Shown: positions 22,646 to 39,586 of the stretch, piece after piece
How positions within the stretch are numbered: the stretch's first letter is position 1
How the letters are laid out: the number at the start of each line of letters is the position of its first letter
Virus record (IMG/VR): IMGVR_UViG_3300026075_000018
Location: 1 to 43,377 of that record
From: a virus
Reading direction: 5' to 3' (one strand)
DNA: 43,377 nt
Program-made: the position numbers and the translations under genes
The notes under the pieces: generated by a model
The model's input: the letters and a program-made list of their open reading frames with translations, nothing else
What the model was told of the DNA's origin: nothing
The model's database searches: none

Positions 22646-22677
22646 TCGCGGACTAAACATCTCCTATAATGAGACCC
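22646..22677 (+). promoter_or_regulatory. Promoter-like element P1
   Basis: TCGCG at 22646-22650, exactly 14 bases, TATAAT at 22665-22670, then GAGACCC. It drives the cassette at 22694. Member of a 13-copy family with invariant spacing. Confidence 0.85.
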
Positions 22678-22693
22678 TAACAAAGGAGAACGT

Positions 22694-22975
22694 ATGTTCA
22701 GAAAGCCCAAACCACCAAGCAAGTTGGAGTTGGCCATTGACGCACTACTCGATCGCGTCGCGACGGAAGAATACGACTCCGAAGAGACACCCAAGATCGT
22801 CGACCAGGTAACCAAGCTCATCAAGCTGAAGGAGACTAGCACTCCCAAGCGGCCGAGCCCTGACACCTGGATCCTCGTGGCTGGGAACCTCATCGGAATC
22901 GTGATCATCATCGGACACGAACGAGCAAACGTCATAACCAGCAAAGCACTCGGCTTTGTGATGAGGCTGAAGTAG
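22694..22975 (+). CDS. Small membrane protein, first promoter cassette
   Basis: A 93-residue protein with its own promoter (P1) and terminator. Residues 1-58 are charged (KLELAIDALLDRVATEEY, IVDQVTKLIKLKE) and should be helical and cytoplasmic. Residues about 60-75 form a membrane helix (WILVAGNLIGIVIIIG). AAAGGAG sits 7 bases before the ATG, and the 5' untranslated region should be only about 20 bases. No family recognised. Like its cassette neighbours, it may act early on the host envelope, an inference from size and arrangement only. Confidence 0.75.
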   Translation: MFRKPKPPSKLELAIDALLDRVATEEYDSEETPKIVDQVTKLIKLKETSTPKRPSPDTWILVAGNLIGIVIIIGHERANVITSKALGFVMRLK

Positions 22976-23007
22976 CAGACTTTCCAGTTGTTACGGACGA
23001 GATGAAA

Positions 23008-23045
23008 GGGTGTGTAGCTGACAACTACATGCCCTCTCGTTTTTG
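23008..23045 (+). terminator. Terminator of the first cassette
   Basis: GGGTGTGTAG pairs with CTACATGCCC (10 pairs, two G-T), followed by CTCG and TTTTTG. It ends the transcript of the gene at 22694 and lies 3 bases before promoter P2. Confidence 0.8.
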
Positions 23046-23047
23046 AT

Positions 23048-23079
23048 TCGCGAAGTTTTCAAACCCTATAACGAGACCC
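23048..23079 (+). promoter_or_regulatory. Promoter-like element P2
   Basis: TCGCG at 23048-23052, 14 bases, TATAAC at 23067-23072, then GAGACCC. It drives the gene at 23098. Confidence 0.85.
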
Positions 23080-23097
23080 TTAGAGAAAGGAAGATCA

Positions 23098-23283
23098 ATG
23101 CTTCAGGTAAACGCCGTCATCACCGACGAACAGAACAATCAAGTACTCGTAAACGTTACGGGAACCGAAGAAGTCGAGATCATCGTCACCAAAGCTGAAA
23201 GGCAGCAGAAGATGACCTTGACTTGGGCGGAAGCCGCAGCACTGCGAGGACTGTTGGACTTCGCCGAGGATAACTGCATCTAA
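23098..23283 (+). CDS. Small cassette protein A
   Basis: A 61-residue soluble protein with an N-terminal beta part (LQVNAVITDEQNNQVLVNV) and a helical end (WAEAAALRGLLDFAEDN). It resembles the protein encoded at 23390: both have a strand-rich first half followed by a xE(A/I)AxLRxLL helix, so they are probably ancient paralogs. AGAAAGGAAGATC precedes the ATG. It lies between P2 and its own terminator, as a one-gene transcript. Function unknown. Confidence 0.75.
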   Translation: MLQVNAVITDEQNNQVLVNVTGTEEVEIIVTKAERQQKMTLTWAEAAALRGLLDFAEDNCI

Positions 23284-23313
23284 CTGAATCGTATCGACCC
23301 TCTAGAGCTCAAG

Positions 23314-23342
23314 ACCAGAGTCCCTACAAGGACTTTGGTTTT
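23314..23342 (+). terminator. Terminator of cassette A
   Basis: ACCAGAGTCC pairs with GGACTTTGGT over 10 positions (one G-T pair), loop CTACAA, then TTTT. The T run merges into the TTTTCGCA of promoter P3. Confidence 0.85.
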
Positions 23343-23372
23343 CGCAAAACTTTCAGGGCATATAATGAACCC
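23342..23372 (+). promoter_or_regulatory. Promoter-like element P3
   Basis: TCGCA at 23342-23346, 14 bases, TATAAT at 23361-23366, then GAACCC. It begins inside the T run of the preceding terminator and serves the gene at 23390. Confidence 0.85.
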
Positions 23373-23389
23373 TACAGAAAGGAAGACCC

Positions 23390-23587
23390 ATGATTCTGAT
23401 TCGACGCGACTTCATTAACGAAGCCGGAGAAGAAGTCTCGATTGAAGTTATCGAAGATGTGAAAGGTGTAACGATTGCTCGTACCAGGCCGGAAGGCCAG
23501 ACGGAAACGTTGTACTATCCAACTGAGATAGCTGTCTTGAGAGAACTTCTCGGACTTCTTACGCCCGCGTTCAAGACGAAAGGTTAA
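23390..23587 (+). CDS. Small cassette protein B
   Basis: A 65-residue protein, similar in layout to cassette protein A: strands in MILIRRDFINEAGEEVSIEV and GVTIARTRPE, then a helix TEIAVLRELLGLLTP. A basic tail ends it. GAAAGGAAGACCC precedes the ATG. It is bracketed by P3 and a hairpin terminator. No known family recognised; the paired cassettes suggest duplication followed by divergence. Confidence 0.75.
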   Translation: MILIRRDFINEAGEEVSIEVIEDVKGVTIARTRPEGQTETLYYPTEIAVLRELLGLLTPAFKTKG

Positions 23588-23604
23588 TCCCGACTTGGTT
23601 CAAA

Positions 23605-23635
23605 ACCAGACTCCCCTGACAAGGAGTTTGGTTTT
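23605..23635 (+). terminator. Terminator of cassette B
   Basis: ACCAGACTCC pairs with GGAGTTTGGT (10 pairs, one G-T), loop CCTGACAA, followed by TTTTCG. Nearly the same stem as the terminator at 23314. Confidence 0.85.
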
Positions 23636-23675
23636 CGTTTTCCAAAAATCCCCCGGGTGGAATTTTCAGAAAAGG

Positions 23676-23707
23676 TCGCAGAATTTACATGGGCCCTAAT
23701 GAGACCC
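23676..23707 (+). promoter_or_regulatory. Promoter-like element P4
   Basis: TCGCA at 23676-23680, 14 bases, CCTAAT at 23695-23700, then GAGACCC. The -10 part is degenerate but the spacing and downstream GAGACCC are kept. It drives the gene at 23728. Confidence 0.75.
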
Positions 23708-23727
23708 CCCTACTGAAGGAGAACCCC

Positions 23728-23895
23728 ATGAAGAAGATTGACGATGCACTCGCCAAGGCCACTTCTGACGGAACCATCAACGGTAAGGCACTCGCTGTCA
23801 AGCTCGGCTTGATGGCGGCTGCTACCGCTGCTGGTGTCGTCGGAACTGTACTTGTCCAGCGCACCCTCGATCGGAAAGCGTCGGACTCTGAATAG
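23728..23895 (+). CDS. Small membrane cassette protein
   Basis: A 55-residue protein: a charged N-terminal helix (KKIDDALAKATSDGTIN), then one membrane helix (LGLMAAATAAGVVGTVLV) and a polar end (DRKASDSE). The ATG at 23728 follows GAAGGAGAACCCC. An in-frame ATG at 23689 falls inside promoter P4 and cannot be used from it. It is followed by a weak hairpin. The resemblance to other cassette membrane proteins in this window is in size and layout, not clear sequence identity. Confidence 0.75.
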   Translation: MKKIDDALAKATSDGTINGKALAVKLGLMAAATAAGVVGTVLVQRTLDRKASDSE

Positions 23896-23905
23896 GAGAA
23901 GCCTG

Positions 23906-23933
23906 AAGCCCCGTTACACGGGCTTTGGGTTTC
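23906..23933 (+). terminator. Weak terminator
   Basis: AAGCCCCGT folds back on ACGGGCTT with one bulged C, followed by TGGGTTTCG. The T run is short, so read-through into the gene at 23956, which has no promoter of its own, is likely. Confidence 0.55.
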
Positions 23934-23955
23934 GTTATGCCCGGAGAGGAGGATT

Positions 23956-24189
23956 ATGGGTTGGTTAGAACTTATCGCAGCTGTCTTGATGAACGTACTT
24001 ATCTTGGCAGTTACGATCTATGTGGTGCTCTATGTTCTAGTACCATTTGCGATGTTATGTGTTGTTGTCGCTAAGTACGATCTCTCTTCTAAGAAGCGAC
24101 AAGAAGAGAAGGAACGCGAGAAGAATGCCGCAAATGGCTACGTAATGACGAATGAGGAGTTGGATCGGATGTATGGTGGCCCTTGGTGA
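23956..24189 (+). CDS. Small membrane protein
   Basis: A 77-residue protein whose first 38 residues are almost entirely hydrophobic (LELIAAVLMNVLILAVTIYV continuing to AMLCVVVA), forming one long or two short membrane helices. The remainder is charged (KKRQEEKEREKN) and ends DRMYGGPW. GGAGAGGAGGATT provides a strong ribosome site. It overlaps the next gene, at 24173, by 17 bases, so the two are co-translated. No family recognised. Confidence 0.7.
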   Translation: MGWLELIAAVLMNVLILAVTIYVVLYVLVPFAMLCVVVAKYDLSSKKRQEEKEREKNAANGYVMTNEELDRMYGGPW

Positions 24190-24958
24190 TCTAATTAAGC
24201 GGCTCGAGAAGCTTGTAGTAGACAATTCGCCAACCATACTCACTGCGATTGGTGTGACTGGTACTCTCACTACAGCATATTTGACCGCACAAGCTACATT
24301 CAAGGCTGCAGAACTTATCTATCTAGAAGAAGTGCGTCGGCTAGAGTTACGTAAACAAGGCGACGAGTCACCGGGTTACCTGCTTCCCAAAGACGCCGTT
24401 AAGCTTGTCTGGAAGTTGTATATCCCTTCAGCAGCTACTGCTGCAATGACGATTGCTTCCATCATCGGGTCAGATCGTATCAGTTCCCGTCGTGCAGCCG
24501 CGGTAGCTGTTGCATATTCCATCACTGAGAAGGCCTTCGCAGAGTATCGCGACAAGGTTGTCGAGAAGATCGGAGAGAAGAAGGAAGAAGCCATTCGCTC
24601 TGAGTTGGCTCAAGCACGTGTCGACAGGGATCCCGTTGGCAACGCCACAGTCATCATCGGAGAAGGACGAGTTCTGTGTTACGAAGAGTTCACCGGGCGT
24701 TTCTTCTACTCTGATATGGAGTCACTCCGGAGGGCTGAGAACGACATCAATGCGCAGGTCATCAACGACTCATATGCAGCACTGTCGGATCTGTATGACC
24801 TGCTCAGCTTGCCCCATACTTCCGAATCAAGCGAGGTCGGATGGAATCTTGACCGACTCCTCAAGCTGGAGTTCTCGCCCCTGATATCGGAAGGTCGTCC
24901 GTGCATATCTGTCGGGTTCTCTGTTAAGCCCATCCGTGGTTTCGCCCGACTCCAGTAA
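24173..24958 (+). CDS. DUF6353-like phage membrane protein, copy 1
   Basis: A 261-residue protein resembling the DUF6353-type phage family. An N-terminal membrane helix (SPTILTAIGVTGTLTTAYLT) is followed by a charged linker and a second hydrophobic stretch (YIPSAATAAMTIASIIG). The conserved block RRAAAVAVAYSITEKAFAEY comes next. The C-terminal half includes FTGRFFYSDMESLRRAENDI and LSDLYDLLSLP. A paralog with the same layout lies at 27291. The start is uncertain: ATG 24173 overlaps the previous gene and has only a modest ribosome site. Function of the family is unknown; it commonly sits near tail and lysis genes. Confidence 0.65.
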   Translation: MVALGDLIKRLEKLVVDNSPTILTAIGVTGTLTTAYLTAQATFKAAELIYLEEVRRLELRKQGDESPGYLLPKDAVKLVWKLYIPSAATAAMTIASIIGSDRISSRRAAAVAVAYSITEKAFAEYRDKVVEKIGEKKEEAIRSELAQARVDRDPVGNATVIIGEGRVLCYEEFTGRFFYSDMESLRRAENDINAQVINDSYAALSDLYDLLSLPHTSESSEVGWNLDRLLKLEFSPLISEGRPCISVGFSVKPIRGFARLQ

Positions 24959-24982
24959 CACCTAATCAAGAAGGAGAACGAA

Positions 24983-25123
24983 ATGAAGTCACTGTTCAAG
25001 GCACTCAAGACCAAGAAGGTCATCATCCCTCTCGTCGCGACTCTCGTCACCACTCTGGTCGTCGTTGGCCTGGGTGTCGCAACCAAGACTCAGCTCGCGG
25101 TGGAGGACGAGACCGAAGACTGA
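24983..25123 (+). CDS. Small membrane protein (46 residues)
   Basis: A 46-residue protein beginning MKSLFKALKTKKVIIPL, with a basic N-terminus, one membrane helix (IIPLVATLVTTLVVVGLGV) and an acidic tail (VEDETED). GAAGGAGAACG lies before the ATG. The charge pattern predicts the C-terminus outside. It could equally be a short lipoprotein-less secreted peptide. Nothing indicates a specific role. Confidence 0.7.
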   Translation: MKSLFKALKTKKVIIPLVATLVTTLVVVGLGVATKTQLAVEDETED

Positions 25124-25163
25124 TCACTACTCATTAATCGAAACGTATACGAAGGGTAAGAGC

Positions 25164-25742
25164 GTGCTCAAGAAGACAATCAAGTACAAGAATCTCGACG
25201 GTGAACCGATCACCGGAGACTTCTACTTCAACATGACCAAAATGGAACTCGCTGAGATGGAGGTTCTCAAGGAGGGTGGCCTTCGTGAGCATCTCGAGCG
25301 AATCATCAAGGAGCAGGATCGTCGTCAGATTCTGATGGCCTTCAAGGATCTCATCGCGGCGACTGTCGGTCGGCGTTCGGAGGATGGTATCCGGTTCGAG
25401 AAGTCCGAGAAGATCACCAATGAGTTCATGCAGACTGACGCCTACTCCGAACTCATCCTCTCGTTCTTCACGGATCCGAAGGCCGCGGTCGAGTTCATCA
25501 GCGGAGTCATGCCGAAGGACCTTGTCGACAAGGTGGACATGACGAAGGTGATGTCACAGCCTATGGTCCTTGAGTCCGGACCGAAGGATGAACCAGGGAA
25601 GAGGGAGCTCGGCGACTACAGCTACGAGGAACTCGAAGCGATGCCCTTCGATGAGTTCTCGGATCTTGTGGGTCGTCAGAAGGGCAACGTCGACAAGGCT
25701 ATCCTCATGCTGGCGATGCGGAGGGCAACTTACCGGAGGTAA
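25164..25742 (+). CDS. Tail-assembly-chaperone-like protein
   Basis: A 192-residue soluble protein. The opening VLKKTIKYKNLDGEPITGDF with FNMTKMELAEMEV, then LREHLERIIKEQDRRQILMA and FKDLIAATVGRRS, and later TDAYSELILSFFTD matches a widespread phage family often labelled tail assembly chaperone or minor structural protein. The C-terminus (about 145-190) is a further helical region with LEAMPFDEFSDLVG. GTG at 25164 is used since CGAAGGGTAAGAGC precedes it; earlier in-frame codons overlap the small gene upstream. Because a better chaperone candidate occurs at 10742, the precise job here is uncertain. Confidence 0.6.
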   Translation: MLKKTIKYKNLDGEPITGDFYFNMTKMELAEMEVLKEGGLREHLERIIKEQDRRQILMAFKDLIAATVGRRSEDGIRFEKSEKITNEFMQTDAYSELILSFFTDPKAAVEFISGVMPKDLVDKVDMTKVMSQPMVLESGPKDEPGKRELGDYSYEELEAMPFDEFSDLVGRQKGNVDKAILMLAMRRATYRR

Positions 25743-25746
25743 GTAG

Positions 25747-25839
25747 ATGATAGTTAAAGTTCTGATCCATTTGTTCTTGACCTGCATAACCGGCGGGTTG
25801 TGGCTTCTGGGTCTCATCATCTGGCGGATGCTTAAGTAG
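25747..25839 (+). CDS. Tiny membrane protein (30 residues)
   Basis: A 30-residue protein starting MIVKVLIHLFLTCITGGLW and ending IIWRMLK. The IHLxLTxxTGGLWLxxLIIW pattern is a common short membrane protein of actinobacteria and their phages. GGAGG lies 7 bases before the ATG, at the very end of the preceding gene, so expression is coupled to it. Confidence 0.65.
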   Translation: MIVKVLIHLFLTCITGGLWLLGLIIWRMLK

Positions 25840-25860
25840 CGCGATGAGGGGGGACCAGCA

Positions 25861-25894
25861 AGACTAGAGGGTACGGGTCTCACCCATCTAGTCT
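25861..25894 (+). other. Strong hairpin without a T run
   Basis: AGACTAGA (25861-25868) pairs perfectly with TCTAGTCT (25887-25894), and inside it GGGT can pair with ACCC. No U-tract follows, so it is not a standard terminator. It sits in a 136-base gap between 25839 and 25976 and may be a processing or stability element. Confidence 0.6.
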
Positions 25895-25975
25895 ATACCG
25901 GATGCTAGGTCTTCAACGACAGCCGAGAGTGCGGTACATGTGCCCGACATCGCGATAACTTATAAGTAGGTAAGG

Positions 25976-26143
25976 ATGTATCTCGATACGGTTTTGGACA
26001 TGGATACAATGCCTATATTCACTGGAACTCCTGATGAGATACGAGAGTGGGTGAGAAGGAAGAAGATTGGTCACGATAGATGGGTCTACATCGAGGATAG
26101 CGGCCAATGTGTAAGTATCAAGGAGTACCTGACTCGCACATAA
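25976..26143 (+). CDS. Small conserved-looking protein (55 residues)
   Basis: A 55-residue protein with the pattern TGTPDEIREWVRRKKIGHDR then WVYIEDSGQCVSIKEYL. This looks like a real small alpha/beta protein: a helix with basic residues followed by strand, Gly-containing turn and a closing helix. GTAGGTAAGG lies before the ATG at 25976. Its last codons contain the TCGCA of promoter P5. Function not recognised. Confidence 0.6.
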   Translation: MYLDTVLDMDTMPIFTGTPDEIREWVRRKKIGHDRWVYIEDSGQCVSIKEYLTRT

Positions 26144-26165
26144 AACATATCCCTTAATGAGACCT
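26134..26165 (+). promoter_or_regulatory. Promoter-like element P5
   Basis: TCGCA at 26134-26138, 14 bases, CTTAAT at 26153-26158, then GAGACCT. It drives the gene at 26189 and overlaps the end of the preceding coding region. Confidence 0.75.
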
Positions 26166-26188
26166 ACTTTAAACAGAAGGAGACCCCC

Positions 26189-26443
26189 ATGACCAAAACG
26201 GAAATCGCGAAAGCGTTGACCTCGTGTGTCGTCGGGTTCGCCACTTCTACTGTTGTCAAGGAGATTGTCAAGAACAACACTGACCCTGAGAAGGTTGCTG
26301 ATAAGGCAGCCGTAATCATCGCCAGTTATGTCCTTGGCGCTATCGCCGCTGATGCCAGTAAGGATTGGACGGACACGAAGATCGACGAGCTCGTCGCCAA
26401 GTGGAGGAAGTTGACGTCGAAGGACGAACTAACCACTGTCTAG
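26189..26443 (+). CDS. Small cassette protein with hydrophobic segments
   Basis: An 84-residue protein. Two mildly hydrophobic stretches, ALTSCVVGFATSTVVKEIV and KAAVIIASYVLGAIAADA, are separated by a polar DPEKVADK; the end (IDELVAKWRKLTSKDEL) is a charged helix. It could lie on or in the membrane. AGAAGGAGACCCCC precedes the ATG. It is framed by P5 and a hairpin terminator as a single-gene transcript. No known family recognised. Confidence 0.7.
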   Translation: MTKTEIAKALTSCVVGFATSTVVKEIVKNNTDPEKVADKAAVIIASYVLGAIAADASKDWTDTKIDELVAKWRKLTSKDELTTV

Positions 26444-35167: not shown

Positions 35168-35324
35168 CTGGGCGTGGGTCATCACGTCCGGCCTTTTGTG
35201 TGGGACAGTTGGACTGACACTCGGGTTCTTCGTTTCCATGCACTTCGTCGGCAAGGTGGTCAGAGAAGCTAACGCCGTGAAAGCCAAGAACACCACCACA
35301 ACTATCCAGAAAGCAGAGAGATGA
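35160..35324 (+). CDS. Small membrane protein (54 residues)
   Basis: A 54-residue protein beginning MVNWAWVITSGLLCGTVGL, with one membrane helix (about 4-30) and a polar helical tail (KVVREANAVKAKNTTTTIQK). GAGGAGGTAAAACTG precedes the ATG at 35160, inside the end of the zinc-ribbon gene. It overlaps the following gene by 4 bases (ATGA). Unknown function. Confidence 0.65.
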   Translation: MVNWAWVITSGLLCGTVGLTLGFFVSMHFVGKVVREANAVKAKNTTTTIQKAER

Positions 35325-35611
35325 GCCTCAACATCCAGCGCTACACTCATGTGCCCTTGTATGTGGAAGCCGTTCAGGTGACAGCTGACAACATGGCCAA
35401 AGTCGCTGAGTGGGTCGGCGGAACTATCCAGATGGATTCCGAGAACCAGCAGTACATCAAGATCGCCACCATCCGGCCTCTGCGCGATCGTCAGACGCAA
35501 GCCTATGTCGGCGACTGGGCCCTGAAGACTGACGTCGGCCTGAAGGTGTACACGAACAAGGCCTTCGGTCGAGGGTTCATGGCTGCTCCCCTGGAGTCTG
35601 CGAAGGTATAA
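35321..35611 (+). CDS. Small conserved phage protein (96 residues)
   Basis: A 96-residue protein with the recurring phage pattern YTHVPLYVEAVQVTADNMAK, VAEWVGG, YIKIATIRPLRDRQTQAYVG and DWALKTDVGLKVYTNKAFGR. Similar short proteins are widespread in phages of actinobacteria and Firmicutes, and their role is unknown. It closes the replication operon: a hairpin terminator begins 13 bases after its stop. Confidence 0.7.
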   Translation: MSLNIQRYTHVPLYVEAVQVTADNMAKVAEWVGGTIQMDSENQQYIKIATIRPLRDRQTQAYVGDWALKTDVGLKVYTNKAFGRGFMAAPLESAKV

Positions 35612-35623
35612 CTCTTGAAGGTT

Positions 35624-35649
35624 AGGTAGAGAAACGGGGCTCTACCTTT
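35624..35649 (+). terminator. Terminator of the replication operon
   Basis: AGGTAGAG (35624-35631) pairs perfectly with CTCTACCT (35640-35647) around AAACGGGG, followed by TTCC. The T run is short but placed correctly. Confidence 0.65.
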
Positions 35650-35675
35650 CCTTGAGGAGTTAGGAGGTGAGAACG

Positions 35676-35690: not shown

Positions 35691-35700
35691 AGACGCCGTT

Positions 35701-35732
35701 AGGTAGGGGAACTCCACGGGCCCCTACCTTCT
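35701..35732 (+). terminator. Terminator-like hairpin before the tRNA-like gene
   Basis: AGGTAGGGG (35701-35709) pairs perfectly with CCCCTACCT (35721-35729), 9 pairs, loop of 11, then TCTT. The stem is very stable and the T run weak. It may be a terminator or the 5' boundary of the tRNA-like RNA. Confidence 0.6.
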
Positions 35733-35733
35733 T

Positions 35734-35818
35734 GGGGTGGTGGCCTATTGGCAAGGGCACGGTCGTGGCCACGTAAAGAAGATCAACCGAGAACTGGGTT
35801 CGATTCCCAGCCACCCCG
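35734..35818 (+). tRNA. tRNA-like gene with atypical anticodon arm
   Basis: The acceptor stem GGGGTGG (35734-35740) pairs with CCACCCC (35811-35817). A D-arm GCCT/GGGC closes a loop containing GG. The T-arm CTGGG-TTCGATT-CCCAG is canonical. The 35 bases in between do not form a normal five-pair anticodon stem with a seven-base loop: CGGT can pair with ACCG only around a 22-base loop, which itself holds the palindrome CGTGGCCACG. I therefore cannot assign an amino acid. It could be a tRNA with an insertion, a decayed tRNA or a tRNA-like structure. No CCA is encoded. A promoter-like element (P6) follows 2 bases later. Confidence 0.5.
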
Positions 35819-35820
35819 CT

Positions 35821-35852
35821 TCGCAAACTAAACATTCCCTATAATGACCGAT
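35821..35852 (+). promoter_or_regulatory. Promoter-like element P6
   Basis: TCGCA at 35821-35825, 14 bases, TATAAT at 35840-35845, then GACCGA instead of GAGACCC. No sizeable gene follows, only a candidate small RNA. Confidence 0.8.
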
Positions 35853-35982
35853 GGACCCATGCTATTGTAATCACCAAACCATCCTTAATGCTGTCGAGTA
35901 ACACAGATCGCAGGATGGTGCGGCAAGATCTTAGCGTCCGAGTCCCGGAAGATGAGATGGACGTGCATGCCATCTCATTTTG
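35851..35982 (+). ncRNA. Candidate small RNA 1
   Basis: A transcript of about 130 bases is predicted between P6 and a clean terminator. Inside, CCATCCT (35880-35886 region) can pair with AGGATGG about 27 bases later, giving an internal hairpin, and the 3' end is the ATGAGATGG/CCATCTCAT hairpin with TTTTG. No gene with a ribosome site is present. One tiny ORF of 16 codons (35851-35901, starting MDPCYCNHQT) begins exactly at the expected start of transcription and could be translated as a leaderless message, which is common in actinobacteria. Function unknown. Confidence 0.55.
35952..35982 (+). terminator. Terminator of candidate small RNA 1
   Basis: ATGAGATGG (35952-35960) pairs perfectly with CCATCTCAT (35970-35978), followed by TTTG. 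It lies 4 bases before the TCGCA of P7. Confidence 0.75.
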
Positions 35983-35986
35983 CTCC

Positions 35987-36017
35987 TCGCAGGTTCTACA
36001 TGTTGCATAATGAGGTA
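35987..36017 (+). promoter_or_regulatory. Promoter-like element P7
   Basis: TCGCA at 35987-35991, 14 bases, CATAAT at 36006-36011, then GAGGTA. It drives candidate small RNA 2. Confidence 0.75.
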
Positions 36018-36106
36018 AACCTCGAAGGAAGCAGAAGACTGTGACCTAACGAGAGAGCCTCGAAAGGGTAAGACTCCGTATGTAAGCTGCGGAGTCTTAC
36101 TCTTTA
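36018..36106 (+). ncRNA. Candidate small RNA 2
   Basis: About 89 bases lie between P7 and a perfect 11-pair terminator. The predicted RNA starts in or near GAGGTAAACCTC, itself a small hairpin, and the centre repeats CCTCGAA twice (CCTCGAAGGAAG and CCTCGAAAGGG). No ORF with a start, a ribosome site and more than three codons is present. It is the clearest stand-alone small RNA in the window. A regulatory or antisense function is possible; no target was identified. Confidence 0.65.
36068..36106 (+). terminator. Terminator of candidate small RNA 2
   Basis: GTAAGACTCCG (36068-36078) pairs perfectly with CGGAGTCTTAC (36090-36100), 11 pairs with an 11-base loop, followed by TCTTTAT. Confidence 0.85.
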
Positions 36107-36131
36107 TCTTTGCAAACCCTATCGTTTTTAG

Positions 36132-36163
36132 TCGCATTCTAACCATACTGTCTAATGAGACCC
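36132..36163 (+). promoter_or_regulatory. Promoter-like element P8
   Basis: TCGCA at 36132-36136, 14 bases, TCTAAT at 36151-36156, then GAGACCC. It drives the gene at 36183. Confidence 0.85.
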
Positions 36164-36182
36164 TACTACACAAGGAGATTGA

Positions 36183-36374
36183 GTGATTACCAAAGAAACT
36201 GCGAAGAAGATTGCTTTGGGCGCTACTGTCGGATTTGTTGTCGGAGCCACAGTTACCATCATCGCTACTGATAAACTGAGCTTCGTCCTCAAAGAAGCCA
36301 AGTGGACCCCGCAAGGCGATATGCTTCTGTACTTCTATGGTCGTAAACACCACATGATCATCCCCAAACCGTAG
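36183..36374 (+). CDS. Small membrane cassette protein (63 residues)
   Basis: A 63-residue protein with a basic N-terminus (TKETAKKIALG), one membrane helix (ATVGFVVGATVTIIAT) and a folded-looking polar end (GDMLLYFYGRKHHMIIPKP). GTG at 36183 follows AAGGAGATTGA. It is a one-gene transcript between P8 and a hairpin terminator. The C-terminal domain suggests it does more than span the membrane. No family recognised. Confidence 0.7.
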   Translation: MITKETAKKIALGATVGFVVGATVTIIATDKLSFVLKEAKWTPQGDMLLYFYGRKHHMIIPKP

Positions 36375-36383
36375 AGTCAATAG

Positions 36384-36412
36384 CCGAAACCCCTTCAACA
36401 AGGGTTTTGGTT
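36384..36412 (+). terminator. Terminator of the 36183 cassette
   Basis: CCGAAACCCCTT folds on AAGGGTTTTGG (11 pairs with one bulged C and one G-T), loop CAAC, followed by TTATCGCA, so it abuts P9. Confidence 0.75.
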
Positions 36413-36413
36413 A

Positions 36414-36445
36414 TCGCAAACTATACGCATCCTTTAATGAAACCC
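36414..36445 (+). promoter_or_regulatory. Promoter-like element P9
   Basis: TCGCA at 36414-36418, 14 bases, TTTAAT at 36433-36438, then GAAACCC. It drives the gene at 36463. Confidence 0.8.
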
Positions 36446-36462
36446 CAATGAAAGGAGCCATC

Positions 36463-36594
36463 ATGGATAAGGCATGGTACATGGCACTAGCTACAAACGG
36501 AAACGTCGTCTTCCTGCTGATAGCAGTAGCCGTGGCCACACCCACATTCATCGTGCGCCGAGTAATCAGGAGGTTCAATCCCGACAAGGACTAA
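36463..36594 (+). CDS. Small membrane cassette protein (43 residues)
   Basis: A 43-residue protein beginning MDKAWYMALATNGNVVFLL with a central membrane helix (NVVFLLIAVAVATPTFIV) and a strongly basic end (RRVIRRFNPDKD), predicting the C-terminus inside the cell. GAAAGGAGCC lies 5 bases before the ATG. One-gene transcript from P9. Function unknown. Confidence 0.7.
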   Translation: MDKAWYMALATNGNVVFLLIAVAVATPTFIVRRVIRRFNPDKD

Positions 36595-36600
36595 TGTAGA

Positions 36601-36635
36601 AGAATAGACTGCTCGTAACTGACGGTCTATTCTTT
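36601..36635 (+). terminator. Terminator of the 36463 cassette
   Basis: AGAATAGAC (36601-36609) pairs perfectly with GTCTATTCT (36625-36633), followed by TTCGCA; the U-tract runs directly into P10. Confidence 0.8.
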
Positions 36636-36666
36636 CGCAAAAGTTACAAAGGCTCTAATGAGACCC
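36635..36666 (+). promoter_or_regulatory. Promoter-like element P10
   Basis: TCGCA at 36635-36639, 14 bases, TCTAAT at 36654-36659, then GAGACCC. It drives the gene at 36689. Confidence 0.85.
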
Positions 36667-36688
36667 CCATCTACCGAAAGGAAGAGCT

Positions 36689-36955
36689 ATGTCGACCGAA
36701 GGAATCGTCGTCGGCGCCATTGTTGGCGTTGCCGTTGGAGCTTTCTCAGCCGTCGTTGCTAATGGTGCAATCCGTGAACTACTCGATAAGTCCCACAAGG
36801 AAGAACTCGAGGAGACTCGGCACGCAGCATTCAACGAAGGTTGGGGAGCCGCCAGCACTAACGCGAACAATGTCCGACAGTCCTACGTTCGTCTGTTCCC
36901 CGAACCGGAAGAGTCAAAGGGTACAACCCTCAAAGCTGGCCGCAAGGCTGCCTAG
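36689..36955 (+). CDS. Membrane cassette protein (88 residues)
   Basis: An 88-residue protein with an N-terminal membrane helix (GIVVGAIVGVAVGAFSAVVA) followed by a helix rich in Glu, Lys and His (RELLDKSHKEELEETRHAAF), a small-residue region (GWGAASTNANN) and a basic end. CCGAAAGGAAGAGCT precedes the ATG. One-gene transcript between P10 and a strong terminator. No family recognised. Confidence 0.7.
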   Translation: MSTEGIVVGAIVGVAVGAFSAVVANGAIRELLDKSHKEELEETRHAAFNEGWGAASTNANNVRQSYVRLFPEPEESKGTTLKAGRKAA

Positions 36956-36959
36956 AAGG

Positions 36960-36993
36960 CTCTAGGGCCCCTTAAACAAGGGCTCTAGAGTTT
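36960..36993 (+). terminator. Terminator of the 36689 cassette
   Basis: CTCTAGGGCCC (36960-36970) pairs with GGGCTCTAGAG (36980-36990), 11 pairs with one G-T, followed by TTT of the TTTCGCA that begins P11. Confidence 0.85.
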
Positions 36994-37024
36994 CGCAGAA
37001 CCCCCACGTCCTCTAATGAGACCC
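36993..37024 (+). promoter_or_regulatory. Promoter-like element P11
   Basis: TCGCA at 36993-36997, 14 bases, TCTAAT at 37012-37017, then GAGACCC. It drives the gene at 37043. Confidence 0.85.
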
Positions 37025-37042
37025 CCTAAAGAAGGAGAAGCT

Positions 37043-37225
37043 ATGCTAAGTGTGGACGAGATGAAGAGCATCTTGGACAGTCTTTACAAGAAGCAAGCGG
37101 ACCGACTTGTCGCGTCGAATGAGCCACTGGAACAGTTTCTCAATCGACCTGATGAGGCGGCCGTGACCTTCGAGATCGATTGTTACGAAGCCCTAATCGA
37201 AGACGCAGCAAAAGCCCGATCCTGA
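37043..37225 (+). CDS. Small acidic cassette protein (60 residues)
   Basis: A 60-residue, largely helical acidic protein: LSVDEMKSILDSLYKKQADR, then EPLEQFLNRPDEAAVTFEID and CYEALIEDAAKARS. Unlike most cassette products it has no membrane helix. The ATG at 37043 follows AAGAAGGAGAAGCT; the frame extends up to 37016 but that overlaps P11. Bracketed by P11 and its own terminator. Function unknown. Confidence 0.7.
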   Translation: MLSVDEMKSILDSLYKKQADRLVASNEPLEQFLNRPDEAAVTFEIDCYEALIEDAAKARS

Positions 37226-37233
37226 AAGGAGTC

Positions 37234-37265
37234 ACCAGGGCCCCCTAGACAAGGGCTCTGGTTTT
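37234..37265 (+). terminator. Terminator of the 37043 cassette
   Basis: ACCAGGGCCC pairs with GGGCTCTGGT (10 pairs, one G-T), loop CCTAGACAA, then TTTTAG. Confidence 0.85.
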
Positions 37266-37269
37266 AGTT

Positions 37270-37300
37270 TCGCATGGAAAGCACGCCCTATAATGAATAC
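37270..37300 (+). promoter_or_regulatory. Promoter-like element P12
   Basis: TCGCA at 37270-37274, 14 bases, TATAAT at 37289-37294, then GAATAC. It drives the gene at 37320. Confidence 0.8.
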
Positions 37301-37319
37301 TAACGAAGGGACACTCACC

Positions 37320-37427
37320 ATGTCTGATCAAGTACTACAACACGCCCATGTTATCGGCCTAGTTATCTTAGGCGGAATTGGTGGTGCATGTATCGTTCTA
37401 CTGTTCAGGAAATTTGGACCACGTTAG
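37320..37427 (+). CDS. Tiny membrane cassette protein (35 residues)
   Basis: A 35-residue protein: MSDQVLQHAHVIGLVILGG with a membrane helix (VIGLVILGGIGGACIVLLF) and a basic end (RKFGPR). The Gly-rich helix (GGxGG) suggests helix packing or oligomerisation in the membrane. GAAGGGACACTCACC precedes the ATG. One-gene transcript between P12 and a terminator. Confidence 0.65.
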   Translation: MSDQVLQHAHVIGLVILGGIGGACIVLLFRKFGPR

Positions 37428-37432
37428 TAAGG

Positions 37433-37463
37433 CCCGAGCCCCTTAAACAAGGGCTCTGGTTTT
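37433..37463 (+). terminator. Terminator of the 37320 cassette
   Basis: CCCGAGCCC pairs with GGGCTCTGG apart from one internal mismatch, loop CTTAAACAA, followed by TTTTC. No promoter element follows. Confidence 0.8.
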
Positions 37464-39505: not shown

Positions 39506-39536
39506 TCGCGTAAAAAACGTGGACTATAATAGAAGG
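39506..39536 (+). promoter_or_regulatory. Promoter-like element P13
   Basis: TCGCG at 39506-39510, 14 bases, TATAAT at 39525-39530, then AGAAGGG rather than GAGACCC. It is the only member of the family ahead of a multi-gene operon (39587-43341), which includes the RNA polymerase candidate. Confidence 0.75.
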
Positions 39537-39586
39537 GAGTAGATCAAGCAAATTGCATACCCTCTTAATTTCGGCAGGAGTACATC

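Follow-up and report, generated by a model that had tools for sequence, protein, structure and literature searches.

Phage genes that are very small and that each appear to carry their own start and stop signals raise the question of what reads these signals, and of how a series of such genes changes over time. We addressed this in a 43,377-base virus record from a soil bacteriophage, analysed over its whole length (hereafter the window), whose nearest cultured relatives are Streptomyces phages of the siphovirus type, such as RosaAsantewaa and HotFries. Our main reading, to which we assign a probability of roughly two in three, is that the gene train in this window consists of units with promoters of ~36 bp, most likely read by a two-barrel RNA polymerase of the phage, and that these units recombine as cassettes.

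A train of seven units between the prim-pol and helicase genes

A preliminary description had placed five single-gene cassettes at 36132-37463. All five were present, but the prim-pol to helicase interval holds seven units, and the train really starts at 35821 (Table 1). The plan that had been proposed for each unit, a promoter, a leader, a gene and a hairpin, was found in all five gene units on the evidence of pattern matches, open reading frames and folding. Each of the five genes has a ribosome-binding site, with the start codon 23-28 nt downstream of TAATGA. Four of the five products contain one hydrophobic segment and are predicted to be single-pass membrane proteins, in agreement with the preliminary description (maximum 19-residue hydropathy, in order, 2.15, 2.19, 2.54, 0.44 and 2.68). 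None of the cassette proteins matched a PHROG or Pfam family at useful E-values.

The hairpins of the five gene cassettes have folding energies of -15.4 to -21 kcal/mol (z -2.2 to -5.0), and the hairpin of unit 2 reaches z -7.4. A terminator stem-loop lies directly before a promoter between small genes at all five gene cassettes, and terminators merge into promoters as had been described, the hairpin being followed by a short T tract that adjoins the next TCGCA. Since these tracts contain 3-4 T, efficient termination at the hairpins is no more than plausible. A crude search over all 201 sites of the element in the phages studied found a hairpin plus T tract upstream of 37% of them, versus 10% of random positions. 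The preliminary description took each gene to be dosed separately; this may hold in the train, but some units of the same promoter class are multi-gene, such as Maya genes 40-42.

Units 1 and 2 contain no open reading frame with a ribosome-binding site. Because both have a promoter match and a terminal hairpin, they may encode small RNAs. Three similar units without an open reading frame were found in the relative G002 (at 35178, 35323 and 35443).

Table 1 Features of the window discussed in the text; promoters, products and RNA genes are predictions.
Feature	Position	Strand	Composition or basis
Second region of the same promoter class	22646..26443	+	PWM scan; behind the lysis region
tRNA gene	35734..35818	+	Rfam RF00005, 44.2 bits, permissive filters; upstream of the train
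Unit 1	35821..35986	+	Promoter 35821-35847; ~130 nt without a convincing ORF; hairpin about 35947-35983
Unit 2	35987..36110	+	Promoter 35987-36013; ORF-free stretch of ~95 nt; 18-bp hairpin 36063-36105 with a T tract behind it
Unit 3	36132..36413	+	Promoter 36132-36158; gene 36183-36374, GTG start, 63 aa, one TM helix; hairpin 36381-36413
Unit 4	36414..36634	+	Promoter 36414-36440; gene 36463-36594, 43 aa, one TM helix; hairpin 36600-36634
Unit 5	36635..36992	+	Promoter 36635-36661; gene 36689-36955, 88 aa, N-terminal TM helix; hairpin 36958-36992
Unit 6	36993..37269	+	Promoter 36993-37019; gene 37043-37225, 60 aa, soluble; hairpin 37234-37262
Unit 7	37270..37463	+	Promoter 37270-37296; gene 37320-37427, 35 aa, one TM helix; hairpin 37429-37463
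Weaker element variant, TATAATAGAAGGGA(t)AGAAT	39506..39541	+	Upstream of the exonuclease and RNA polymerase genes
Single-chain two-barrel RNA polymerase (predicted), 891 aa	40406..43081	+	phrog_4291, Pfam HTH_23, DFDGD, AlphaFold fold

A repeated element of fixed spacing

The pattern TCGCA-N14..22-TAATGA matched the window 10 times, always on the + strand and always at exactly 27 nt (TCGCA-N16-TAATGA), versus a mean of 0.19 matches expected by chance from shuffles. In units 3 to 7 the element starts at exactly the first base of the unit. The full element spans ~36 bp, TCGCA-N5-TACA-N5-TATAATGAGA, and GACCCC comes next before most protein genes. A weight matrix scan (PWM) gave 12 sites in the window, adding 22646 and 23048 to the pattern matches. 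In the second region, the sites at 22646, 23048, 23342, 23676 and 26134 precede genes of 93, 61, 65, 55 and 84 aa, respectively. The 93-aa gene (22694-22975), which follows 22646, the first site beyond the lysis region, occupies the same place in many relatives, unlike most cassette genes.

Sequences similar to the weaker variant at 39506 were found about 810-930 nt upstream of the polymerase gene in most relatives. This variant may control the polymerase operon itself or, once the genome ends are joined, the structural genes, in front of which no element sites were seen; that the structural genes are reached by read-through across the joined ends is a guess.

The element is shared by phages of hosts from two bacterial phyla

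A 36-nt PWM was trained on six related genomes (consensus TTTTCGCAAAATTTACATGGCCTATAATGAGACCCC) and applied with a cut-off of 10 bits or more. It found 5-17 sites per genome on the + strand of further polymerase-encoding phages, FP_oengus aside, and the phages scanned infect Streptomyces, Gordonia, Arthrobacter, Rhodococcus, Curtobacterium, Microbacterium and Lactococcus. All minus strands together gave one match at this cut-off, and shuffled genomes gave at most one each. For the Faecalibacterium phage FP_oengus, whose polymerase is 43% identical, the PWM gave two weak sites, and an unsupervised search recovered 12 copies of a diverged form, ACGCGAAAAATnCA-N5-CTTTATGG, with the same spacing. 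The ~36-bp motif was present in 22 of the 22 examined genomes with a homologue of the 891-aa protein, their hosts belonging to two bacterial phyla. A fixed-pattern scan gave at least 120 matching stretches in viruses; in 84,980 prokaryote genomes it gave no match, which is also what chance predicts there with 24 fixed bases.

The sites fall into two tail classes. Where the tail is GACCCC or similar (CCC-type), a protein gene or open reading frame follows at 143 of 152 sites, mostly with the element just before the ribosome-binding site and start codon; behind purine-rich tails, a stretch without an open reading frame or a tRNA follows at 26 of 42. As the two classes differ in what follows, GACCCC probably belongs to the mRNA leader.

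This placement also bears on whether the elements could mainly be operator or silencer sites, like stoperators, for a DNA-binding protein of the phage, and not promoters. Many dispersed copies in a single orientation would suit such a role, as would the helix-turn-helix matches in the polymerase itself. However, the position of most CCC-type sites before genes, the tRNAs (for example in FP_oengus) or stretches without open reading frames that follow other sites, the location directly after terminator-like hairpins in the train, and the resemblance to a -10 box all argue against it, and we consider an operator role very improbable.

An 891-aa protein with a predicted two-barrel polymerase fold

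The 891-aa protein matches phrog_4291, a PHROG called RNA-dependent RNA polymerase, and has helix-turn-helix matches (Pfam HTH_23) near both ends. Its catalytic, metal-binding D.DGD motif reads GADFDGDAVLVIP; DFDGD occurs in all 22 homologues and is invariant in 55 aligned polymerase sequences. Searches of the PDB by sequence (phmmer and profile) found no polymerase, and the matches came from fold comparison alone. In an AlphaFold model built from the 55 sequences (pLDDT 80.3), residues 223-727 match QDE-1 (Z 15.6 over 380 residues) and gp64 of the Thermus phage P23-45 (Z 13.5 over 358 residues). On this model, the protein has the two-barrel (DPBB) RNA polymerase fold.

Of the 33 viral contigs of at least 38 kb in which the motif occurs, 31 encode a homologue of the polymerase; in the other two, the prim-pol gene lies near the end and the contig stops short of the helicase and polymerase region. 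Distances between polymerases correlate with distances between motifs (r 0.81; 0.72 given GC), as is expected for any vertically inherited gene. Prim-pol, helicase and nuclease genes are also common to these phages, and the polymerase therefore does not stand out from them by co-occurrence or by correlated divergence. The only phages found with the helicase and no polymerase are distant Enterococcus phages (22% identity), and therefore no close negative control is available.

To our knowledge, promoters have been described for few of the single-chain two-barrel RNA polymerases. The precedent for such polymerases with their own promoter motifs is P23-45, whose gp64 and gp96 are two-barrel RNA polymerases with own motifs (PMC10770324). 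P23-45 has a single-chain two-barrel polymerase with a DxDxD signature and a crab-claw core, and its genome carries a dedicated promoter motif, features that the window is predicted to share. There is no clear sequence match between the two, and the P23-45 motifs, AT-rich or GC-rich, are different; the link between polymerase and motif was drawn there from ChIP-seq and mapped start sites. YonO of phage SPbeta is likewise a single-chain phage polymerase with a D.DGD motif, and matches the polymerase profile very weakly. It transcribes the late genes as one operon, from a promoter whose sequence was unknown in 2017 (PMC5467207). No motif similar to the window element was seen in the SPbeta yonK region.

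Host or phage polymerase as the reader

The same cassette architecture would result if the host RNA polymerase, carrying a sigma70-type factor, used the elements as early promoters. TATAAT would then be the -10 box, and the upstream blocks would bind a phage or host activator replacing the -35 box. Over the 201 sites, this part is near the sigma70 -10 consensus (T97 A86 T98 A91 A79 T98%), and the sites cluster between lysis and replication genes. Two reports also take the motif as a sigma70 promoter: a 50-bp intergenic motif in the Gordonia phage Vardy (PMC9671010) and a 43-base motif in the Gordonia phage Conley (PMC10868162). Both motifs are, like the window element, intergenic with a central TATAAT, and have predicted terminators and membrane-protein genes nearby. 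Vardy and Conley belong to cluster DJ and encode the same polymerase as the window, and their motif is very probably the same element. The reports cover five copies in one genome each, and make no link to the polymerase, other host genera or cassette gain and loss.

No -35 signal was found, however, at any usual spacing, TTGACA at 16-18 nt being present at 17 of 201 sites versus 9.6% of random positions, and a generic sigma70 promoter scan did not detect the element sites. The -10-like part drifts (TTAAAT or TTATAT in Rosa, CTTTAT in FP_oengus) while the spacing and the upstream blocks are kept, and the element is conserved in phages whose hosts span two bacterial phyla. Reading by the host keeps a minor share of the probability, owing to the fit of TATAAT to sigma70, and we regard it as unlikely. 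We favour the phage polymerase as the reader. With somewhat less confidence than for the train, we consider it probable that the element is a dedicated, sigma-independent promoter of a two-barrel polymerase lineage in phages of Actinomycetota and Bacillota, and that together with the terminator it forms an expression and recombination module by which small membrane-protein and RNA genes are traded.

Gain and loss of single cassettes

The preliminary description had seen in the train an accessory locus with gene gain and loss, which is supported by differences in gene content and by single-cassette indels in relatives. Comparison with close relatives, the check that had been named beforehand, showed that the gene content of the interval varies. 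The genes for 63 and 43 aa were found only in the window and in the near-identical L006, the 60-aa gene additionally in G002 and L034, and the 35-aa gene additionally in G002 and L008. Between the prim-pol and helicase genes there are 7 sites in the window, 11 in G002, 5 in L008, 8 in G007 and 3 in L046, versus 0-2 in all other relatives counted, which indicates that the train expanded in the window's part of the tree.

In the window's own lineage only gene content differs, and the cassette junctions were mapped in its Rimavirus relatives (Rima, Maya, TieDye and Meibysrarus), in which the aligned flanks are mostly 98.5-99.9% identical. Three indels of ~300-340 bp were found there, each of one single-gene unit. 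A 301-bp unit with Maya gene 34 is present or absent among these genomes, with its junction in a shared terminator; a second unit, of 322 bp and carrying Maya gene 43, is likewise present or absent, with its junction at the promoter and the upstream flank replaced; and a 342-bp unit of Rima is absent from Maya, with its junction in a terminator.

In the mechanism that we propose, each unit would comprise a ~36-bp promoter, a single small gene or a small RNA, and a terminator hairpin adjoining the next promoter, and the single-chain polymerase would recognise these promoters without a host sigma factor. We infer that the motif is a promoter, that the phage polymerase reads it, that termination is efficient and that each transcript carries one gene. 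Since the units are near-identical in their terminator and promoter sequences, recombination between such copies would insert or delete whole cassettes, and the train would thereby serve as an accessory region whose proteins are small and mostly membrane-bound.

In the PeSLs of T4-type phages, the host polymerase reads the promoters, which are T4 early promoters. According to PMC4503421, which cites Arbiol et al. 2010 and Comeau et al. 2014, PeSLs are composite promoter-terminator elements that mediate cassette shuffling, and to that extent they resemble the window train, with its composite terminator-promoter sequences between small genes. Unlike PeSLs, the window has a longer, different promoter motif, in siphovirus-type phages with their own polymerase; the window is not from a T4-type phage with T4 early promoters, as its relatives are siphovirus-type and its element lacks a TTGACA -35 box.

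The motif in two Gordonia phages and composite terminator-promoter cassettes in T4-type phages were thus already known. Within the literature searched, what is new is how far the motif extends across host phyla, its link to a polymerase of the two-barrel type, the division of its tails into two classes and the mapping of cassette junctions; there may be earlier reports of the motif. The likely promoter is long, has up to about 17 copies per genome and occurs in cultured phages that infect laboratory strains, which makes the polymerase link directly testable. If true, it would provide a one-protein transcription system for actinomycetes and would explain the trading of small accessory genes across a large phage group.

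Sequences upstream of the train

The tRNA gene upstream of the train was called neither by ARAGORN nor by a gathering-mode Rfam scan, and no motif site was seen in front of it. A strong inverted repeat lies at 35609-35662 (23-nt arms, 83% complementary, -29.9 kcal/mol), and is followed by a second hairpin near 35700-35730.
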